A stretch of DNA of 55,434 nt from Giesbergeria sp. Its GTDB lineage: Bacteria; Pseudomonadota; Gammaproteobacteria; Burkholderiales; Burkholderiaceae_C. The notes below the pieces were generated by a model, which was not told where the DNA came from, did not search any database, and saw only the letters and a program-made list of their open reading frames with translations. Shown one piece after another: positions 3,755 through 39,606 of this stretch. Positions within the stretch are counted from its first letter, which is position 1. Each line of letters begins with the position of its first letter. The stretch spans positions 1-55,434 of the forward strand of contig JAKLLE010000049.1 of NCBI GenBank assembly GCA_023150295.1. Reading direction: 5' to 3'. A program made the translations under genes and the position numbers.

Positions 3755-5014
3755 TTATTTATTCTGTGCCAGCAATGGCGACTCCGGCAGCACGCGAAAC
3801 GCCACCGACGCCAGCGCCAGCCACCCCGCGATGGCCAGCATCACGGCAGTGTGCGGGTCTGCGCCGCGCTGCTGCGCCCAGGTGGCGACGATGCCGGTGA
3901 ACCACTGCATCAGCGCCACGCCCAGGAACATGGCCATGGTGAAGGCCGACAGGGCGCGGCCCGTCAGCGCGGGTGGGTAGGAGGCGCGCACGTCGGCGTA
4001 CTGCAGCACGCCATAGCCCGACAACAGGCCCATCAGCAGGATCAGCGCCACGCTGGCGCCCGTGTGTTGCCGCAGCAGCGCCAGCGCCACGAACAGCGCG
4101 GCCATCAGCAGCGAGGCGTTGGCGATCCAGAACCGGCGCTTGGCGGTGCCGGGGTCCAGCCGACCCGACAGGCCGGGCGCGAACAGCGCGATGAGCGACA
4201 GGGCGAGTGCGACGTTGCCGCTGTCCACCAGCGTGAAGTGGAAGCGGTCCATCAGCAGCGGCGCCAGCCACAGGCCGCGCAGGGACAGGAAGGCAGCGTA
4301 GCCCGACATGCCCAGCAGCAGGATGCCCCAGGTGTGGGGCAGGAGCAGCAGCTTGGCAAAGCCGCGCAGGGCCTGGCCCCAGGTTTCTTGCGCGGCTGCG
4401 GGCGGGGTGGGCAGTGGGGGCTCGTGCACGCGCAGGTAGATCAGCAGCCACGACAGCGCGCTCAGGCCGGCCAGCGCTGCGTATCCGGTGCGCCAGCCGC
4501 CGTGCTGCACCAGCCAGGCGAGCGGGGTGCCGGTGAACAGCAGGCCCAGCCCGCCCACGCCCATGGCCACGCCCGAGAGAAAAGCGAAGCGATCCGCCGG
4601 AAAGTGCCGCGCGATGAACAGCGTGCACGCCAGGAAGGCGGGCGAGCAGCCCATGCCGATCAGCAACTGGCCCGCCATCAGCCCGGCATAGCCAGGCGCC
4701 AGAGCGGAGAGTGTCGCACCGGCAATCGCCAGCGGAAAGGCGGTGAGCACGGTGCGGCGCAGACCGTACAGGTCCAGGCCCACGCCCATCAACAGTTGGG
4801 CCACTCCGAAGGAAAGACCGAACAGCCCGGCGAAGGCGCCCAGCGACTGGGCGGACAGCCCGAACTCCGCCGTCAGCCCCTGGGCCAGGATGGCGGTGGT
4901 GGTGCGGAACGCCTGGCTGAGCGCGAAGCCGCTGAGCAGCGCCAGCAGCATGACCCAGAGTGAGCGCTCGCTCGTGTGCCCTGGCCCGGGGGGATGCGTG
5001 GTGTGGCTGTTCAC
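3755..5014 (-). CDS. Major facilitator superfamily transporter
   Basis: A 419-residue membrane transporter with 12 predicted hydrophobic segments; the substrate is not inferable. The start was set to GTG at 5014, which overlaps the stop of the upstream TSUP gene (GTGA). The open frame extends 49 codons further, but that part is arginine-rich shadow sequence inside the TSUP gene. The first helix (SLWVMLLALLSGFALSQ) follows a short polar leader. The 4-base overlap makes this the second gene of a coupled pair. An orphan permease of the AraJ/YbfB type is possible. Confidence 0.85.
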   Translation of the reverse strand: MNSHTTHPPGPGHTSERSLWVMLLALLSGFALSQAFRTTTAILAQGLTAEFGLSAQSLGAFAGLFGLSFGVAQLLMGVGLDLYGLRRTVLTAFPLAIAGATLSALAPGYAGLMAGQLLIGMGCSPAFLACTLFIARHFPADRFAFLSGVAMGVGGLGLLFTGTPLAWLVQHGGWRTGYAALAGLSALSWLLIYLRVHEPPLPTPPAAAQETWGQALRGFAKLLLLPHTWGILLLGMSGYAAFLSLRGLWLAPLLMDRFHFTLVDSGNVALALSLIALFAPGLSGRLDPGTAKRRFWIANASLLMAALFVALALLRQHTGASVALILLMGLLSGYGVLQYADVRASYPPALTGRALSAFTMAMFLGVALMQWFTGIVATWAQQRGADPHTAVMLAIAGWLALASVAFRVLPESPLLAQNK

Positions 5015-29295: not shown

Positions 29296-29317
29296 ATGGT
29301 TATACTGGTGCAACCAT
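29296..29317. promoter_or_regulatory. Operator/promoter of PIN toxin-antitoxin module 1
   Basis: A 22-bp inverted repeat ATGGTT-N10-AACCAT ends on the toxin ATG. TATACT at 29301-29306 (or TATGGT at 29295-29300) can act as -10, placing the start site within a few bases of the ATG. There is no Shine-Dalgarno. The same 22-bp layout is found at module 2 (38183-38204). Confidence 0.6.
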
Positions 29318-29738
29318 GCGAATCGTTCTGGACACCTCCGTGTTGGTGGCAGCGGCGCGGTCGCGCCAGGGGGCCAGCTTTGCCTTGGTCAGCAGTCTGC
29401 CTCACCCGCGCTTTGGGTTTGCCCTGAGCGTGGCGCTGTACACCGAGTGGCAGGCGGTGCTCACACGGCCAGAGCACCTGCCCCCAGGACTGCAGCCGCA
29501 GGACGCCCTGGCCTACCTGCGCTATCTGGCGTCCATCGCCCATCTGCAAGATGTGCACTACCTGTGGCGCCCCTTTCTGCGCGACCCCGATGACGATATG
29601 GTGCTGGAATGCGCCGTGGCCTCGGGCAGCCGCTACCTGGTGACCCACAACGTACGCGACTTTGCGCGCATCACCTCACTGGGGGTCAGCCCGGTGACCC
29701 CTGCTGAATTCCTGGACATGCTGAGGAGCCCGACATGA
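29316..29738 (+). CDS. PIN-domain ribonuclease toxin (COG1569 type), module 1
   Basis: A 140-residue PIN-domain protein, probably an Mg2+-dependent RNase toxin. The acidic active-site residues are D6 (VLDTSVLV), E44, D94 and D115 (THNVRDF). The toxin precedes its antitoxin and their ORFs overlap by 4 bases (ATGA). It is a paralogue of the toxin at 38203, sharing LDTxVLVAxxRSRxGASF, LWRPxLRDPxDxxVLE and YLVTHNxRDF. The start codon lies in the operator dyad and the mRNA is probably leaderless. Confidence 0.88.
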   Translation: MRIVLDTSVLVAAARSRQGASFALVSSLPHPRFGFALSVALYTEWQAVLTRPEHLPPGLQPQDALAYLRYLASIAHLQDVHYLWRPFLRDPDDDMVLECAVASGSRYLVTHNVRDFARITSLGVSPVTPAEFLDMLRSPT

Positions 29739-29965
29739 CTGCATTGACCGTCCGCCTGCCCCATTCGGTGCACGCCAAAATCCGCGAACTGGCAGCGCGC
29801 GATGCCATTTCCGTCAACCAGTTCATCGCCAGTGCTGCGGCAGAAAAGCTTGCCTCCATGCTGACCGTGGACTACCTGCGCCAGGAGGCTGCACAAGGCC
29901 AGCGCGAGGCCTTTGACCGCTACCTGCGGGCCGTTCCCGATGTGCCCGATGCGCAGGAGAGGTGA
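29735..29965 (+). CDS. Antitoxin of PIN module 1 (Arc/HicB-like ribbon-helix-helix)
   Basis: A 76-residue protein. The N-terminal LTVRLPHSVHAKIRELAARD looks like a ribbon-helix-helix DNA-binding strand and helix, with the ISVNQFIASAAAEKL helix next. The C-terminal tail (VDYLRQEAAQGQREAFDRYL) probably wraps the toxin. It is expected to neutralise the PIN toxin and repress the operon at the 22-bp dyad. It is paralogous to the antitoxin at 38631. Confidence 0.83.
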   Translation: MTALTVRLPHSVHAKIRELAARDAISVNQFIASAAAEKLASMLTVDYLRQEAAQGQREAFDRYLRAVPDVPDAQER

Positions 29966-31763: not shown

Positions 31764-32246
31764 TCAGCGCAGGCGCAGAAAGTGGTCCAGCGACAGGCGG
31801 CCTGCGCCGCGCCCGGCCAGGTAGAGCATCAGCGCCGCCCACGACAGGTGCGTGGGCCAGGCGTCGGGGTACACAAAGACCTGGATCACCAGCGTCATGC
31901 CCAGCAGCGCCAGGGCCGACAGGCGCGTGAAAAGTCCCAGCACCAGCAGCACCGGGAACAGGTGCTCGGCCAGGGTGGCCATGGGCGCCGCCCATTCCGG
32001 GGGGATCAGCGGCAGCCTGTACTCCTCGCGGAACAGCAGGTAAGTGGTGTCGGTGATCGTGAAAACGCCCTCCACCTTGGTGCGGCCCGACATCCAGAAA
32101 ATGCCCGCCAGCGCCAGGCGCGCGGCCAGCGCGATCAGGCCGTGCGGTGTGCACTGCTCCAGCCGCTGGGCCAGGCCGTTCCACAGCCCCCGCACGCCGG
32201 GGAGGGATGCGGGCGCAGGGCCGACAGGGGAATGGGTGGTGTGCAT
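31764..32246 (-). CDS. DoxX-family membrane protein of the bufferin operon
   Basis: A 160-residue protein with four membrane helices and the DoxX signature ([19 protein letters not shown]). DoxX genes commonly end bufferin operons; the role there is thought to be in membrane redox or maturation steps but is not settled. ATG 32246 follows GAGGAG by 6 bases, and the 14-bp gap to bufC indicates one operon. It is the last gene of bufA-bufB-bufC-doxX. Confidence 0.87.
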
Positions 32247-32260
32247 GGGGTGCTCCTCGT

Positions 32261-33028
32261 TCAACAGGGTTCGGGGGCGCGCAGGGCGCCGGTGCGCAGC
32301 AGCAGTGCGACGAGCGCGGGCAGGTTGGTGGCGGGGGCGGCCTGCAGGGCCTGGGCGGCGGCGTCTTCAAAAGTGGCGCCGGCAGCGCAGGCGTCCAGCA
32401 GCGCGCAGCCCGCGTGCGGCAGGGGCGCCCATTGCACGGCGTCGTGCGGGCGGGTCAGCAGGGCGCCTTCACCCTTCCAGGGCAGGTTGGCATCCCAGGG
32501 CAGCCCCTCGCGCTGGCATTGCCACAGGCGGTAGGCCGGGTGCTCCGCGCACCACTGCCAGCGCGCGGCCGGGTGGGGTTGCAGGCGCAGCAGCGCCAGG
32601 GTCTTGGGCGCTTGCTGGGCCAGCCAGGCGACTTGCAGCGCGGGCGCGTCGGCGGCCAGGTGGGACTCGGTCCAGCAGCGGTCCAGCCGCGCCACGGCGC
32701 CCAGGTAGGGCAGGTTGGCGGCCGGGCCAAAGCCTTCCAGAAAATCGGCAAAGCCCGCGCCATAGCCCATGAGTCGCCCGTCCGTCGGCGGGTGCTGGTG
32801 CACGAAGGCATGTGCCGTGGCGCGCAGCCAGTCGGTGCCCACCAGGGCGTGCACGGCGGGGTAGTTGGCCTGCAGCGCGTCGATGCAGCCCTTGGCCACG
32901 GTGTTGCGGTACACGGCAAAGCCGGGCTGGGCGAGCAGCGCATCCAGCCAGGCGGGCGGCGGTGCGCTGGCGCCGGGTGGGGGCATCAGGGCACTGGCCA
33001 GGCCGTCCTGGAAATCGCTCAGGCGCAT
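32261..33028 (-). CDS. bufC: BufC, DUF2063-type partner of the MNIO enzyme
   Basis: A 255-residue protein with the N-terminal DUF2063 (HvfC/BufC) domain: [41 protein letters not shown], and [19 protein letters not shown]. Known partners bind the precursor peptide and present it to the DUF692 enzyme. ATG 33028 follows GGAGG and overlaps bufB by 10 bases; the open frame extends 48 arginine-rich codons further, which is shadow. Confidence 0.88.
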
Positions 33029-33861
33029 GGCAGGGCCTCCGGGGTGGTGAGCATGCGGTGCGCGCGCTCGCGCTCGGCCAGCAGCTCGGGCAGGGGCGGG
33101 ATGGCGTCGTCGCGCTCGATCAGCGTGGGCCGGGGGCCGGTGCGCGCGATCAGGCGCTCGTACAGTGCCCACACGGGCTCGGCCACGGGGGCGTCGTGGC
33201 TGTCGATGAGCAGCGCGTCGCCCAGGCGCGGGTCGGCATGGTGGCCCGCGAGGTGGATTTCGGTGATGGCCTGCACCGGAAACGCGTCCAAATAGTCGTG
33301 GGCGCGGGTGCCCAGGTTGTGCGCGCTGAGGACCACGTTGTTCACGTCCAGCAGCAGGCTGCAGCCGGTGCGGCGCACCAGCGCGGCCAGGAAATCGGTC
33401 TCAGACCAATTGTGCCCGTCGATGTGCAGGTAGTGTGTGGGGTTCTCGATGGTGATGGTGCGGCCCAGGGCGTCCTGCGTGGCGCTGATGTTGGCCGCAA
33501 TGCGCGTCAGCGCCTCGTGCGTGCGCGGGAAGGGCAGCAGGTCGGGGTGGTAGCGCCCGCGCCAGGCCGACCATGCCAGGTGCTCGGACACCAGCGCGGG
33601 CTCGATGCGCCGCACCAGTTGCGCCAGGCGCCGCAGGTGCTCCGCATCGGGCGGCGCATCGGCCGCGAGCGAGAGCGACACACCGTGCAGCGACACCGGG
33701 TGCCGCGCCCGGATGGCTTCGAGCCAGGCCAGGCGCGGGCCACCGCCCGACAGGTAATTCTCGGGGTGCACCTCCCACCACAGGCCGCTGGCGGTGCAGT
33801 GCAGGGCCTCGTCGTAATGCTGGGGCTTGAGGCCCAGGCCTGCGGTGAGAAGGTGGGGCAT
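33019..33861 (-). CDS. bufB: BufB, multinuclear non-heme iron oxidase (DUF692)
   Basis: A 280-residue TIM-barrel MNIO enzyme that oxidises cysteines of a RiPP precursor. Candidate metal ligands are in place: H59 (SLHGVSLS), E93 (VSEHLAW), E139/N140 (IENPTHY), D172 and N174 (LDVNNV), H203 and H207 (EIHLAGHH), D220 and H222 (IDSHDAP). In bufferins the enzyme is reported to convert core cysteines to thiooxazoles. It lies between the precursor gene (19-bp gap) and bufC (10-base overlap). Confidence 0.93.
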
Positions 33862-33880
33862 GGTGCGTTCCTATCGGGGA

Positions 33881-34180
33881 TCAGGCCTTGATGGCGCTGA
33901 GTGAGCCCATGCCCTTGGGCGTCTGGATGCTAGTGCAGGTGCCCGCAGGCACATACTTCCAGGCGTTGCCCTGGTAGTCCACCTTGGATGTGCCCGCGCA
34001 GGTGGTGCCGGGGCCGGCGGCGCAGTCGTTCTTGCCGGCCATGGAGACGCCGTAGCACTTCTCCATGGTGGGTTTGGCCATGTCGCCGGACTTGTTCATG
34101 CTGTCGGACTGGGCGATGGCGGCACCAGAAGCGAGGGCGGCAAAAGCCAGGGCGCCGAGGGTGAGGGAACGGGTGGTCAT
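33881..34180 (-). CDS. bufA: BufA1-type bufferin precursor (DUF2282 copper-binding RiPP)
   Basis: A 99-residue secreted precursor. The signal peptide spans residues 1-23 ([18 protein letters not shown]). The mature part has the DUF2282 block with four cysteines, C42 (EKCYGV), C53 (KNDCAA), C61 ([16 protein letters not shown]) and C82 (GTCTSI). In studied bufferins the two central cysteines are modified by BufBC and the product buffers copper in the periplasm. ATG 34180 has AAGGAG upstream. It is first in its operon, downstream of a GTAACC-N16-CGAA promoter. Confidence 0.93.
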
Positions 34181-34253
34181 GCTGATAGCTCCTTGGGTGA
34201 TGAACGAGACCTCTGCCTGCAATGCCAACGCACCCGGCCGGTCTGCGCTGTAA

Positions 34254-34279
34254 TTCGCGGGCGCGGCGGTGCGGGTTAC
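34254..34279 (-). promoter_or_regulatory. ECF (SigF-type) promoter of the bufferin operon
   Basis: On the minus strand GTAACC (34279-34274), 16 bases, then CGAA (34257-34254). This equals the GTAACC-N16-CGAA motif reported, as I recall, for Caulobacter SigF promoters, which include a homologous DUF2282 operon. The start site would be near 34247, giving a leader of about 67 bases before bufA. Confidence 0.75.
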
Positions 34280-34312
34280 GCTGTGGTCGAAAATTTATTT
34301 TTCGGCCCCCGT

Positions 34313-34338
34313 GTAACCGGCCGCGCACCGGCCCCGAA
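34313..34338 (+). promoter_or_regulatory. ECF (SigF-type) promoter of the sigma/anti-sigma operon
   Basis: GTAACC (34313-34318), 16 bases, then CGAA (34335-34338), identical in both hexamers and spacing to the promoter on the other strand 60 bases away. The start site would be near 34346, about 12 bases before the sigma gene ATG and just leaving GAGGGAG as ribosome binding site. This predicts autoregulation. Confidence 0.75.
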
Positions 34339-34357
34339 TACCAGCGAGGGAGACGCC

Positions 34358-34900
34358 ATGGAGATAGAACAGCGGCTGCGCCCGCTGCTGCTGCAGGGCC
34401 TGGAGGGCGACAGCAACGCCTACCAGCGCTTCCTGAAGGAGCTGAGCGCGCATTTGCGGGCCTTTTTGCGCCGCCGCCTGGCCCAGCGGCCCGATGAAGT
34501 GGAGGACCTCGTGCAGGAGACCCTGCTCGCCGTGCACAACCAGCGCCACACCTACCGGCCCGACCTGCCGGTGACGGCCTGGGCTCATGCGATTGCGCGC
34601 TACAAGCTCATCGACTGGCTGCGCTCGCACGCGGTCAAGGGCGCGCTCGACGTGCCGCTGGACGATGCGCAGGAGCTGTTTTCCAGCAGCGACAGCGATG
34701 CCGCGCAGGCCCGGCGAGACCTGGGCCTGTTGCTGCAGACGCTGCCCGAGCGCCAGCGCCTGCCCATCGTGCACATGAAGCTCGAAGGCCTGTCGGTGGT
34801 GGAAACGGCGCGCCTGACGGGGCTGTCGGAATCGGCGGTCAAGGTGGGCGTGCACCGGGGGCTCAAGGCCCTGGCCGCCCGTATCAGGGGAACGGCATGA
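34358..34900 (+). CDS. ECF sigma factor (SigF-like) controlling the bufferin genes
   Basis: A 180-residue ECF sigma factor: region 2 at about 20-90 ([31 protein letters not shown]) and region 4 at about 120-175 ([41 protein letters not shown]). ATG 34358 has GGGAGA 6 bases upstream; the open frame extends upstream without family similarity. It overlaps the anti-sigma gene by 4 bases and is divergent from the bufferin operon. Released by its membrane anti-sigma, it would transcribe both operons. Confidence 0.92.
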
Positions 34901-35538
34901 AAACGGACGATTTGATTGGTTTGCTGGCGCAGGACGCAGAGCCGGTGGCGTCGCACGCCATCGAGCAACGCTTTGCGGTGGCGGCGCTGGCCGGCCTGGG
35001 CGGGGGCCTGGTGTTGATGCTGGTGCTGTTTGGCGTGCGCCCTGGGGTGGTGCAGGACATGGCCCTGCCCATGTTCTGGGGCAAGCTGGTGTTTGCCGGC
35101 CTGCTGGCCGCTGGCGGCCTGGCCGTGTTGCGCCGCCTGGCGCGGCCCGGCATGGGCCTGGGGCACAGCCTGGCGTTGCTGGCCCTGCCGCCGCTGGTGC
35201 TGTGGGGTCTGGCCGCCGTGGCGCTAGGCCAGGCTGGGGCCGGCGAGCGTCTGCCTCTGGTGCTGGGCAGCACCTGGCGCAGCTGTGCCTTCAACATCGC
35301 GGCGCTGTCGCTGCCCGCCCTGGTGGCCAGCCTGTGGGCGCTGCGCGGCGCGGCGCCCACGCGGCTGGCCTGGGCGGGCGCCGGGGCCGGGCTGCTGGCG
35401 GGTGCCCTGGGCGCGCTGGCCTATGCGCTGCACTGCCCGGAAATGGCCGCGCCCTTTTTGGCCGTGTGGTACCTGGCGGGCATGGCCTTGCCCACGCTGG
35501 CGGGTGCCTGGCTGGGGCCGCGCGTGCTGCGCTGGTAG
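34897..35538 (+). CDS. NrsF-type (DUF1109) membrane anti-sigma factor
   Basis: A 213-residue protein with a short cytoplasmic N-terminus and six membrane helices. Two cysteines, C130 (RSCAFN) and C180 (LHCPE), fall almost exactly where I recall the essential C131/C181 pair of Caulobacter NrsF. That pair senses metal or oxidant stress and releases SigF. It is translationally coupled to the sigma gene (ATGA). No other anti-sigma candidate is near. Confidence 0.9.
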
Positions 35539-38150: not shown

Positions 38151-38182
38151 GGAGGGCGGTAGGTCGCCTCGCTGGATGAGAT

Positions 38183-38204
38183 ATGGTATTATGGGCAATA
38201 CCAT
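38183..38204. promoter_or_regulatory. Operator/promoter of PIN toxin-antitoxin module 2
   Basis: A 22-bp inverted repeat ATGGTATT-N6-AATACCAT with perfect 8-bp arms ends on the toxin ATG. TATTAT at 38187-38192 is the best -10, giving a start site within about four bases of the ATG. Geometry and half-site (ATGGT/ACCAT) match module 1 at 29296-29317. Confidence 0.65.
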
Positions 38205-38634
38205 GAAAGCTTGTCCCCAGATTGTGCTGGACACCAATGTGTTGGTGGCGGGGCTGCGTTCACGCAATGGTGCGTCGTTTGAATTGCTCCGGCGCTTGCC
38301 TACAGGGCAATATCGCTTGCATCTGACGGTGCCATTGGCCATGGAGTACGAGGATGTCTTGCACCGTTCCGGGCTGTTGCCCTTGCCTGTGGACGCGATC
38401 GACGCTGTTTTGGACATGGTGTGTGCCGTCGCGGTTCAGCAGCCGGTTCATTTTCTGTGGCGGCCTCAATTGCGTGACCCCCGCGATGAACTGGTGCTGG
38501 AGGCCGCAGTCAATGCCTCGGCAGACTATCTGGTGACGCACAACCTGCGCGACTTTGCTGCCGCAGGTGGGTACGCAGTCCAGGTGGTCACACCCGGCCA
38601 GTTCTTGAAGCTATTGGATGGAGGAGCACTATGA
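38203..38634 (+). CDS. PIN-domain ribonuclease toxin (COG1569 type), module 2
   Basis: A 143-residue PIN-domain toxin. Active-site acids are D10 (VLDTNVLVAGLRSR), E48, D95 and D117 (THNLRDF). It is a clear paralogue of the toxin at 29316 but well diverged. ATG 38203 is placed inside the operator dyad; the frame opens 27 bases earlier, but that would cross the promoter. It overlaps its antitoxin by 4 bases. The module has lower G+C than its neighbours, consistent with later arrival. Confidence 0.88.
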   Translation: MKACPQIVLDTNVLVAGLRSRNGASFELLRRLPTGQYRLHLTVPLAMEYEDVLHRSGLLPLPVDAIDAVLDMVCAVAVQQPVHFLWRPQLRDPRDELVLEAAVNASADYLVTHNLRDFAAAGGYAVQVVTPGQFLKLLDGGAL

Positions 38635-38870
38635 GCATACTCAGCCTGCGTTTACCGCAATCGATCCACCAGAACGCCAAGCTCTATGCCCAGCGGGAGG
38701 GCATTTCCGTCAATCAGTTGGCGGCGACGGCATTGGCTGAAAAACTGGCAGCGCTCGCCGCCGAGGACTACATCGCCCAGCGTGGCCAGCGCGCCAGCGC
38801 TGAAAAATATGCGGCTGCACTGGATCTGGTGCCTGATGTTCCGGCAGCTCCGGGGGATGTGTTGCCGTGA
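38631..38870 (+). CDS. Antitoxin of PIN module 2 (ribbon-helix-helix type)
   Basis: A 79-residue protein with LSLRLPQSIHQNAKLYAQREGISVNQLAATALAEKL, which aligns along its length with the module 1 antitoxin, and a tail LAAEDYIAQRGQRASAEKYAAAL that probably binds the toxin. Its TGA overlaps the ATG of the remnant reading frame at 38870. Confidence 0.83.
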   Translation: MSILSLRLPQSIHQNAKLYAQREGISVNQLAATALAEKLAALAAEDYIAQRGQRASAEKYAAALDLVPDVPAAPGDVLP

Positions 38871-39007: not shown

Positions 39008-39301
39008 TCAGCGCTTGAAACCGGCCTCCCGCTGACTGCGCACCGCCAGCACGAACACGGTATCGATGGCAGCCACGTAGTGGTACAGCGTCACATAGCC
39101 GCGCGAGGCTTGACCTATCACCAGCTCCCGCTTTCCGCCCCGCACAGGGCGCCCGATCAGCGGGCTGAGGGTGAGGATCTGCAGGGCCTCCAGAATGGTG
39201 TCAATGTGCTCGGGTACGGATTCGGGGTCGTGTTGGGCGATGTGGTCGAAGAAGCGGTCGAAGTCGTCCAGGACTTCCGGGGCCAGCTCGATGCGGGTCA
39301 T
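39008..39301 (-). CDS. ParE/RelE-superfamily toxin
   Basis: A 97-residue toxin-like protein: IELAPEVLDDFDRFFDHIAQHD, then SPLIGRPVRGGKRELVI and GYVTLYHYVAAIDTVFVLAVRSQREAGF, the RelE/ParE beta-sheet pattern. ParE proteins poison gyrase, whereas RelE proteins cut mRNA; the lack of a clear RelE catalytic set favours ParE. ATG 39301 was chosen. It follows its antitoxin by 20 bp. Confidence 0.83.
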   Translation of the reverse strand: MTRIELAPEVLDDFDRFFDHIAQHDPESVPEHIDTILEALQILTLSPLIGRPVRGGKRELVIGQASRGYVTLYHYVAAIDTVFVLAVRSQREAGFKR

Positions 39302-39321
39302 GCGCAGGTGGGCGTGGCCGC

Positions 39322-39606
39322 TTACTTGCCCAGCGTGCCGGGAGTGGGCTTGCGCGGACGTTCGCCATGGGTGCGGGCGACCAGGTAGGCCTTGGCGTCG
39401 TCCCAGGCCACGGTCTGGCTCGTGGCGCGGATGCGGGCCCAACGCTCCTCGGCCACTGCGTGAAAGGCGTTGTCCAGTTCCACCTGCTCCACCGTCTGGG
39501 CCAGGGAGTCCAGGATGAAGGCATGGGCCGTTTTGCCCGCTTGCGCGGCAGCGGCGTTGATACGGGCTTTCAGCTCGTCTTCGAGGCGGATGGTGGTGGT
39601 GGGCAT
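39322..39606 (-). CDS. Ribbon-helix-helix antitoxin paired with the ParE-like toxin
   Basis: A 94-residue CopG/ParD-like protein. TTTIRLEDELKARINAAAAQAGKTAHAFILDSLAQTVEQ is a ribbon-helix-helix domain, and a toxin-binding tail follows. It is expected to repress the operon at the TGTAGCAC dyad 22 bases upstream of its ATG. Confidence 0.83.
   Translation of the reverse strand: MPTTTIRLEDELKARINAAAAQAGKTAHAFILDSLAQTVEQVELDNAFHAVAEERWARIRATSQTVAWDDAKAYLVARTHGERPRKPTPGTLGK

Follow-up and report, generated by a model that had tools for sequence, protein, structure and literature searches.

A Buf1 bufferin cluster of Giesbergeria sp. with predicted ECF16-type promoters, and a third predicted site of this type before msrPQ

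Introduction

Bufferins are a widespread, recently recognised copper defence. Here we analyse a cluster of six genes, arranged in two divergent operons at positions 31764-35538 of a 55,434-nucleotide stretch (hereafter the window) of Giesbergeria sp. (assembly GCA_023150295.1, contig JAKLLE010000049.1; contig C12 of a 3.69 Mb genome in 142 contigs). One operon comprises the bufferin genes bufABC and doxX, and the other a gene for an extracytoplasmic function (ECF) sigma factor and nrsF, coding for a putative anti-sigma factor. We consider it very probable that this Buf1 cluster buffers copper under its own ECF16-type switch, which would act on a third promoter, that of msrPQ, as well. With this locus, the Acidovorax lineage now supplies a case whose promoters are legible in the sequence itself.

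Sigma factor and NrsF genes have been reported in Buf1 clusters (PMC12452194). In Caulobacter crescentus, the neighbours of the SigF and NrsF genes are CC3254-CC3257, which encode, as here, a DUF2282 protein, a DUF692 protein, a further protein (given as hypothetical) and DoxX; the divergent order there is deduced from the gene numbers. Caulobacter NrsF is reported to hold the sigma factor and to release it upon stress (PMC3511200). SigF-dependent promoters precede both sigF and the bufferin operon, and MsrPQ belongs to the SigF regulon, as predicted here on both counts. This regulon, bufferin genes and MsrPQ included, was copper-induced in all conditions tested, and a sigF::Tn5 mutant was copper-sensitive (PMC8224329). 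The two organisms differ in that SigF of Caulobacter controls another DUF692 cluster besides (CC2907-CC2905) whereas the present genome has a single MNIO cluster, and in that the NrsF described here scores below the cut-off of the NCBIfam NrsF equivalog.

The same divergent layout is found in a betaproteobacterium, Cupriavidus metallidurans, as gigPABT-rpoQ-rsqA (PMC10304878). The gigPABT operon encodes bufferins (PMC13192273), is induced by copper and gold (PMC10304878), and is one among many copper systems of this organism; the C. metallidurans anti-sigma factor is 49% identical to the NrsF studied here. In the alphaproteobacterium Sinorhizobium meliloti, the RpoE7 (EcfR7) system at SMb20530-SMb20527 includes a divergent, RpoE7-dependent operon of four genes, among them those for a DUF692 and a DUF2063 protein; the first is listed solely as a conserved hypothetical membrane protein. 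The promoters printed there for both units read TGTAAC...CGAA, with spacers of 17 and 16 by our own count (PMC6180224). The Brucella system (BcrS/AbcS, bcrXQP) shares an ECF16 sigma factor, a six-helix anti-sigma factor with two cysteines and the same promoter consensus, but its output is a methionine-rich peptide and methionine repair, with no bufferin (PMC8315932). Since the arrangement has been published for Caulobacter SigF, Sinorhizobium RpoE7 and Cupriavidus gig-rpoQ, the pairing of a bufferin operon with a sigma/NrsF switch is not new, and the present locus is a further example of it.

A Buf1 gene set in two divergent operons

All six genes lie where the sequence-only reading had placed them, each with a Pfam match above the curated cut-off:

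31764..32246, minus strand: doxX (gigT-like), membrane protein; PF07681, 70.7 bits against a cut-off of 23.6.
32261..33028, minus strand: bufC, DUF2063 partner of the MNIO enzyme; PF09836, 74.7 bits against 27.2.
33019..33861, minus strand: bufB, predicted MNIO peptide-modifying enzyme; NF050167 (MNIO_BufB), 362.2 bits against 310, and PF05114, 323.9 bits.
33881..34180, minus strand: bufA, Buf1 (DUF2282) precursor of 99 amino acids with four cysteines; PF10048, 92.6 bits against 22.4.
34358..34900, plus strand: ECF sigma factor gene (SigF / RpoQ / RpoE7 type); PF04542, 47.4 bits, and PF08281, 46.4 bits (regions 2 and 4, above cut-off), and NF009188, 305.7 bits against 250.
34897..35538, plus strand: nrsF, putative anti-sigma factor with six membrane helices and the cysteines Cys130 and Cys180; PF06532, 236 bits against 26.8.

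That reading had further called the bufferin operon complete, and indeed DUF2282, the BufB-type MNIO, the DUF2063 partner and DoxX all score above their cut-offs; judged by these matches, the cluster is a Buf1 bufferin gene set. According to the coordinates, 19 nt separate bufA from bufB and 14 nt bufC from doxX, for which an in-frame TTG upstream at 32264 is a possible alternative start, and bufB overlaps bufC by 10 nt and the sigma gene nrsF by 4 nt. MNIO, DUF2282 and NrsF each gave a single match in the whole genome, all within this cluster, and a genome-wide search for further copies of the three found none. For comparison we took the best 80 of 241 loci by BufB similarity, 72 of which carry the complete set of six gene types. 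With the only genomic matches to three families falling together here and the set recurring in these relatives, the grouping is not due to chance.

Several other assignments were tried and rejected. The NCBIfam model of the Buf2 family (BufA2) scored 19.8 bits against 60, and those of the oxazolin / Hvf systems were likewise below cut-off (HvfB, 216.7 against 360; HvfX, 49.5 against 80, so that the doxX product is not an HvfX equivalog). The neighbouring trxC was rejected as an operon member, since it is convergent to doxX and roughly one relative in two lacks it in the vicinity of the cluster.

Predicted outward-facing promoters between bufA and the sigma gene

The gap between bufA and the sigma gene measures 177 bp and contains two outward-pointing copies of GTAACC-N16-CGAA, both of which fit the published ECF16 consensus, (T/C)GTAAC-N17-CGAA (PMC8315932), exactly. 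Its features are:

34254..34280, minus strand: predicted ECF16-type promoter facing bufA, CGTAAC-N17-CGAA, with CGAA 73 nt ahead of the bufA ATG.
34281..34311, no strand: A/T-rich spacer separating the -35 boxes of the two sites, with a GC content of 48% against 68% for the window.
34312..34338, plus strand: predicted ECF16-type promoter facing the sigma gene, TGTAAC-N17-CGAA, with CGAA 19 nt ahead of the ATG.

With the first pattern used, the window held two sites against 0.07 expected, and none of 100 shuffles had two, a count that is post hoc as the pattern was devised after seeing the sequence. Among the related loci, counting inside position ranges that we set ourselves, the bufA-facing site was present in 75 of the 79 loci with bufA and the sigma-facing site in 71 of the 74 with a sigma gene, both occurring together in 68/74. 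Other strict matches to the consensus numbered five in the 823 kb covered by the 80 loci. When the spacer was altered to N16, N18 or N22 no match was found, N12 gave one, and two scrambled patterns gave three and seven. The motif columns carry about 2 bits each except for the leading T/C (67 and 57 distinct sites), and the spacer columns are variable. The bufA-facing site is missing from L063, L065, L066 and L078 and the sigma-facing site from L055, L059 and L064, of which L055 and L059 have an outward gap site outside the position range. Taken with the family matches, these sites place the sigma factor, by prediction, among the ECF16-type sigma/anti-sigma systems.

In 68 of the 69 loci with both sites, GC content is lower between the sites than in the locus as a whole; in the window, equally GC-poor stretches of spacer size were counted at 1717/55403 positions. 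It is possible that this A/T-rich spacer is a shared UP-like element.

The promoter sites are kept or lost together with NrsF

We compared 30 genomes, our own included, of which 14 have a DUF2282 gene. A strict site facing DUF2282 at a distance of up to 600 nt was present in 7/8 genomes with NrsF and in 0/6 without it (Fisher test, 0.005, a value that ignores descent). Loci in which bufA has no adjacent sigma gene (5/80) point the same way. One of them, L053, ends at a contig edge; the genomes of the other four were searched, and all four agree with the prediction. L054, L058 and L073 keep the bufA site, and a full NrsF is found elsewhere in their genomes with its own nearby GTAAC-N17-CGAA site; L066, which has no bufA site, is accompanied only by a sub-threshold NrsF fragment bearing two stop codons. 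As the presence of the site tracks that of NrsF across genomes, control by the sigma factor is supported independently of any single organism. The proposal that the divergent ECF sigma/NrsF pair controls the operon thus gains support from two conserved, matching predicted promoters that are retained or lost with NrsF.

Genome G017 shows two DUF2282 matches (contigs C88 and C173), both accompanied by a pair of promoter sites; with a contamination given as 7%, it may be a mix of two strains. The sequence TGTAACGGGGCTAAGCCAGTTACCGAA recurs as a match to the promoter pattern in several relatives (G012:C1:103835, G014:C33:2017), in multiple copies in some; we take it to be ribosomal RNA, presumably, and not a promoter.

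A third site, before msrPQ

Genome-wide, the strict consensus has four sites, located before bufA, the sigma gene, msrPQ (contig C78) and a pyruvate kinase gene (C77). A reversed control pattern gave 14 matches against these 4, and the first, looser pattern gave 6 against 16 for its control. Because the controls exceed the consensus, genome-wide counts prove nothing, and it is the position of a site that is informative. A regulon extending beyond these sites was rejected, given just four strict sites against 14 for the control.

Both MsrP and MsrQ score above their NCBIfam cut-offs, and MsrP is present in 23/30 genomes. Within the genus, the strict msrP site was found in 6/7 genomes with NrsF and 0/7 without (Fisher test, 0.005, again ignoring descent), and with one mismatch allowed in 7/7 and 1/7, respectively. 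Not all of these genomes are complete (G009 reaches 64%), and one scored as lacking NrsF may in fact have it. Outside the genus the strict msrP site was found in 0/9 genomes, including one with NrsF (G020), and the NrsF-less G028 has a one-mismatch site. In the MsrP tree three changes of the NrsF label are needed, in a direction that the tree does not settle. The single NrsF-less genome of the genus with a one-mismatch msrP site, G004, is sister to the NrsF-bearing G016 with good support, and its remnant site looks as would be expected for a recent loss followed by decay.

The cluster had been described as self-contained, a claim that finds no support: msrPQ, located on a different contig, has a predicted promoter of this type as well. 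Since this third site tracks NrsF, the regulon likely consists of the bufferin operon and MsrPQ, which would place MsrPQ in the same response as the bufferin, as in Caulobacter.

The pyruvate kinase site (L099 1797-1823, minus strand; G000:C77:78796-78822) is a strict match 28 nt before the start codon. It reads GTAACT, not GTAACC, and a near-identical site is found in the sister genome G003. It may be a chance match or an odd member of the regulon, and we have neither accepted nor discarded the site.

The precursor, its modifying enzyme and the anti-sigma factor

The four precursor cysteines claimed from the sequence, Cys42, Cys53, Cys61 and Cys82, are indeed present, and are retained in 78, 79, 79 and 79 of 79 loci, respectively. 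In Buf1 as described in the literature, modification affects the central cysteines, and a disulphide joins the outer pair (PMC12452194). By hydrophobicity alone, the BufA N-terminus resembles a signal peptide, with one hydrophobic segment at residues 4-24. Alignments show that BufB shares H94, E139, D172, N175, H203, D220 and H222 with 3BWW, a chain of solved structure, as well as with an MbnB chain. The statement that all expected MNIO metal ligands are present is supported at these seven positions. Among the acidic, His, Asn and Cys positions of BufB, 27 are invariant in 80/80 loci and two more in 79/80, figures biased upward because peptide patterns taken from this very BufB served to find the loci. 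BufC C214 is conserved in 79/80 loci.

The description of the DUF1109 protein as a six-helix protein with cysteines at 130 and 180 was confirmed by the PF06532 match (236 bits), by six hydrophobic peaks in the family mean, and by a predicted structure (built from 33 sequences; mean predicted local distance difference test score 89.8) with six membrane-length helices, one of them kinked at 138. Both cysteines are retained in 74/74 loci and correspond to C131 and C181 of Caulobacter NrsF, so the cysteine pair sits at the positions known from there; replacing those two by serine raised expression of the target genes in Caulobacter (PMC3511200). If the N-terminus is cytosolic, the helix count would have both cysteines face the periplasm. 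A search for relatives of NrsF in the PDB found none by sequence profile, and none by fold at E <= 0.001.

Proposed mechanism and alternatives

These results suggest the following course of events for a copper-buffering Buf1 cluster under its own switch. In unstressed cells the sigma factor would be bound to NrsF at the inner membrane. Metal or thiol stress in the periplasm, most likely from copper, may perturb Cys130 and Cys180, by analogy with Caulobacter, and so free the sigma factor, which would then act at the two back-to-back promoters, driving its own operon and bufABC-doxX, and at the third promoter, that of msrPQ. In the cytosol, BufBC would convert the two central BufA cysteines, as in described bufferins, to thiooxazoles; BufA would be exported by means of its putative signal peptide and, as described relatives suggest, bind excess periplasmic copper, and MsrPQ would mend oxidised periplasmic methionines. 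Promoter activity, the inducer, sigma release, thiooxazole formation, export and copper binding are all inferred here by analogy.

Some observations weigh against this account. The NrsF of this cluster reaches 136.1 bits where the NCBIfam model "anti-sigma-F factor NrsF" requires 300 for an equivalog, so that an identical signal specificity should not be assumed and the exact inducer may differ. Inducers also vary among the ECF16 relatives: chromate and cadmium in Caulobacter (PMC3511200), hypochlorite in Brucella (PMC8315932), whereas for Sinorhizobium rpoE7 the fusions tested are reported not to have responded to H2O2, cadmium or chromate (PMC6180224). In C. metallidurans, gig was still expressed once rpoQ had been deleted (PMC10304878, PMC13192273). 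On the genomic side, L063, L065 and L078 have an adjacent sigma gene yet no strict bufA-facing site, G022 bears NrsF without a strict site facing DUF2282, and the pyruvate kinase site, one of four, does not fit the regulon. Moreover, the 80 loci are the closest BufB relatives, so part of the conservation reflects shared descent.

The alternative that survives best is that the switch mainly serves a reactive-chlorine or methionine/thiol-oxidation response in which bufferin and MsrPQ guard the envelope, with copper just one indirect trigger. The third ECF16-type site does lie before msrPQ, and none of the four strict genomic sites has a copper exporter behind it. In Brucella and Azospira, reactive chlorine elicits a response of the ECF16 systems, whose targets include genes for methionine sulfoxide reductases; Caulobacter SigF has been counted, with EcfF of Bradyrhizobium, as reactive-oxygen responsive (PMC8315932). 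However, the sigma-F-dependent genes of Caulobacter are reported not to be induced by reactive-oxygen generators (PMC3511200), and copper induces both the Caulobacter regulon (PMC8224329) and, together with gold, gig (PMC10304878). We therefore regard this alternative as possible but doubtful.

It is also unlikely that the exported peptide is unmodified or does not bind copper, the cluster serving another metal such as gold, cadmium or mercury instead. Bufferin-MerC fusions hint at other metals in some bacteria (PMC12452194) and the relatives show several inducers, but the precursor keeps all four cysteines of Buf1, and BufB the active-site residues that were checked. That another sigma factor or a copper regulator runs the buf operon, with the adjacent sigma gene uninvolved, is very improbable given the exact ECF16 promoter before bufA in 75/79 loci, which follows the presence and absence of NrsF, and the control shown for SigF in Caulobacter and for RpoE7 in Sinorhizobium (PMC6180224).

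Within the favoured account of a copper-buffering cluster under its own switch, we lean, with some reserve, towards a broader picture in which sigma/NrsF governs one envelope-protection regulon, combining a copper-binding peptide with MsrPQ repair, that has been gained and lost within the genus, with promoters fading where the switch is gone, and in which RpoQ drives gig. The last point follows from the gap between gigP and rpoQ in C. metallidurans CH34, where both genes have predicted promoters that match the ECF16 consensus exactly (L090 4211-4237, minus strand, and 4270-4296, plus strand); by the same promoter logic RpoQ would drive the gold-induced gig operon, a control that the cited text states to be undemonstrated (PMC10304878). 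This is a simple prediction, open to promoter mutation, for a well-studied operon. It was not found in the accessible parts of the literature searched and may be new, an earlier notice elsewhere being possible.

Relatives and genomic neighbourhood

The closest named relative of BufB, from Acidovorax sp. 210-6, is 95% identical. Most of the best-scoring BufB loci belong to Burkholderiales such as Acidovorax, Pseudomonas appearing lower in the ranking, so that the host is most probably a betaproteobacterium akin to Acidovorax. The cluster had been called an island. Neither that term nor the idea of a mobile island is supported: cca and trxC occur in the fetched flanks of 40 and 39, respectively, of 80 relatives, which suggests vertical inheritance among the nearer relatives, though an older transfer between classes may have taken place. 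Two loci, L038 and L044, come from bins labelled Phenylobacterium, an alphaproteobacterial name; their BufB proteins are 72 and 71% identical to that of the window, with sigma and NrsF genes beside them. These may represent either an old transfer between classes or misbinned contigs.

The cluster is flanked by two similar two-gene modules about 8 kb apart (29316-29965 and 38176-38870, both plus strand), each coding for a PIN_3-domain protein followed by a small HicB-family protein; from their sequences they look like paralogous toxin-antitoxin pairs. A third toxin-antitoxin-like pair is suggested at 39008-39606 (minus strand), where a ParE-toxin-family protein (PF05016, above cut-off) is encoded behind a small protein whose matches, to models of ribbon-helix-helix proteins and of antitoxins, all stay below cut-off.

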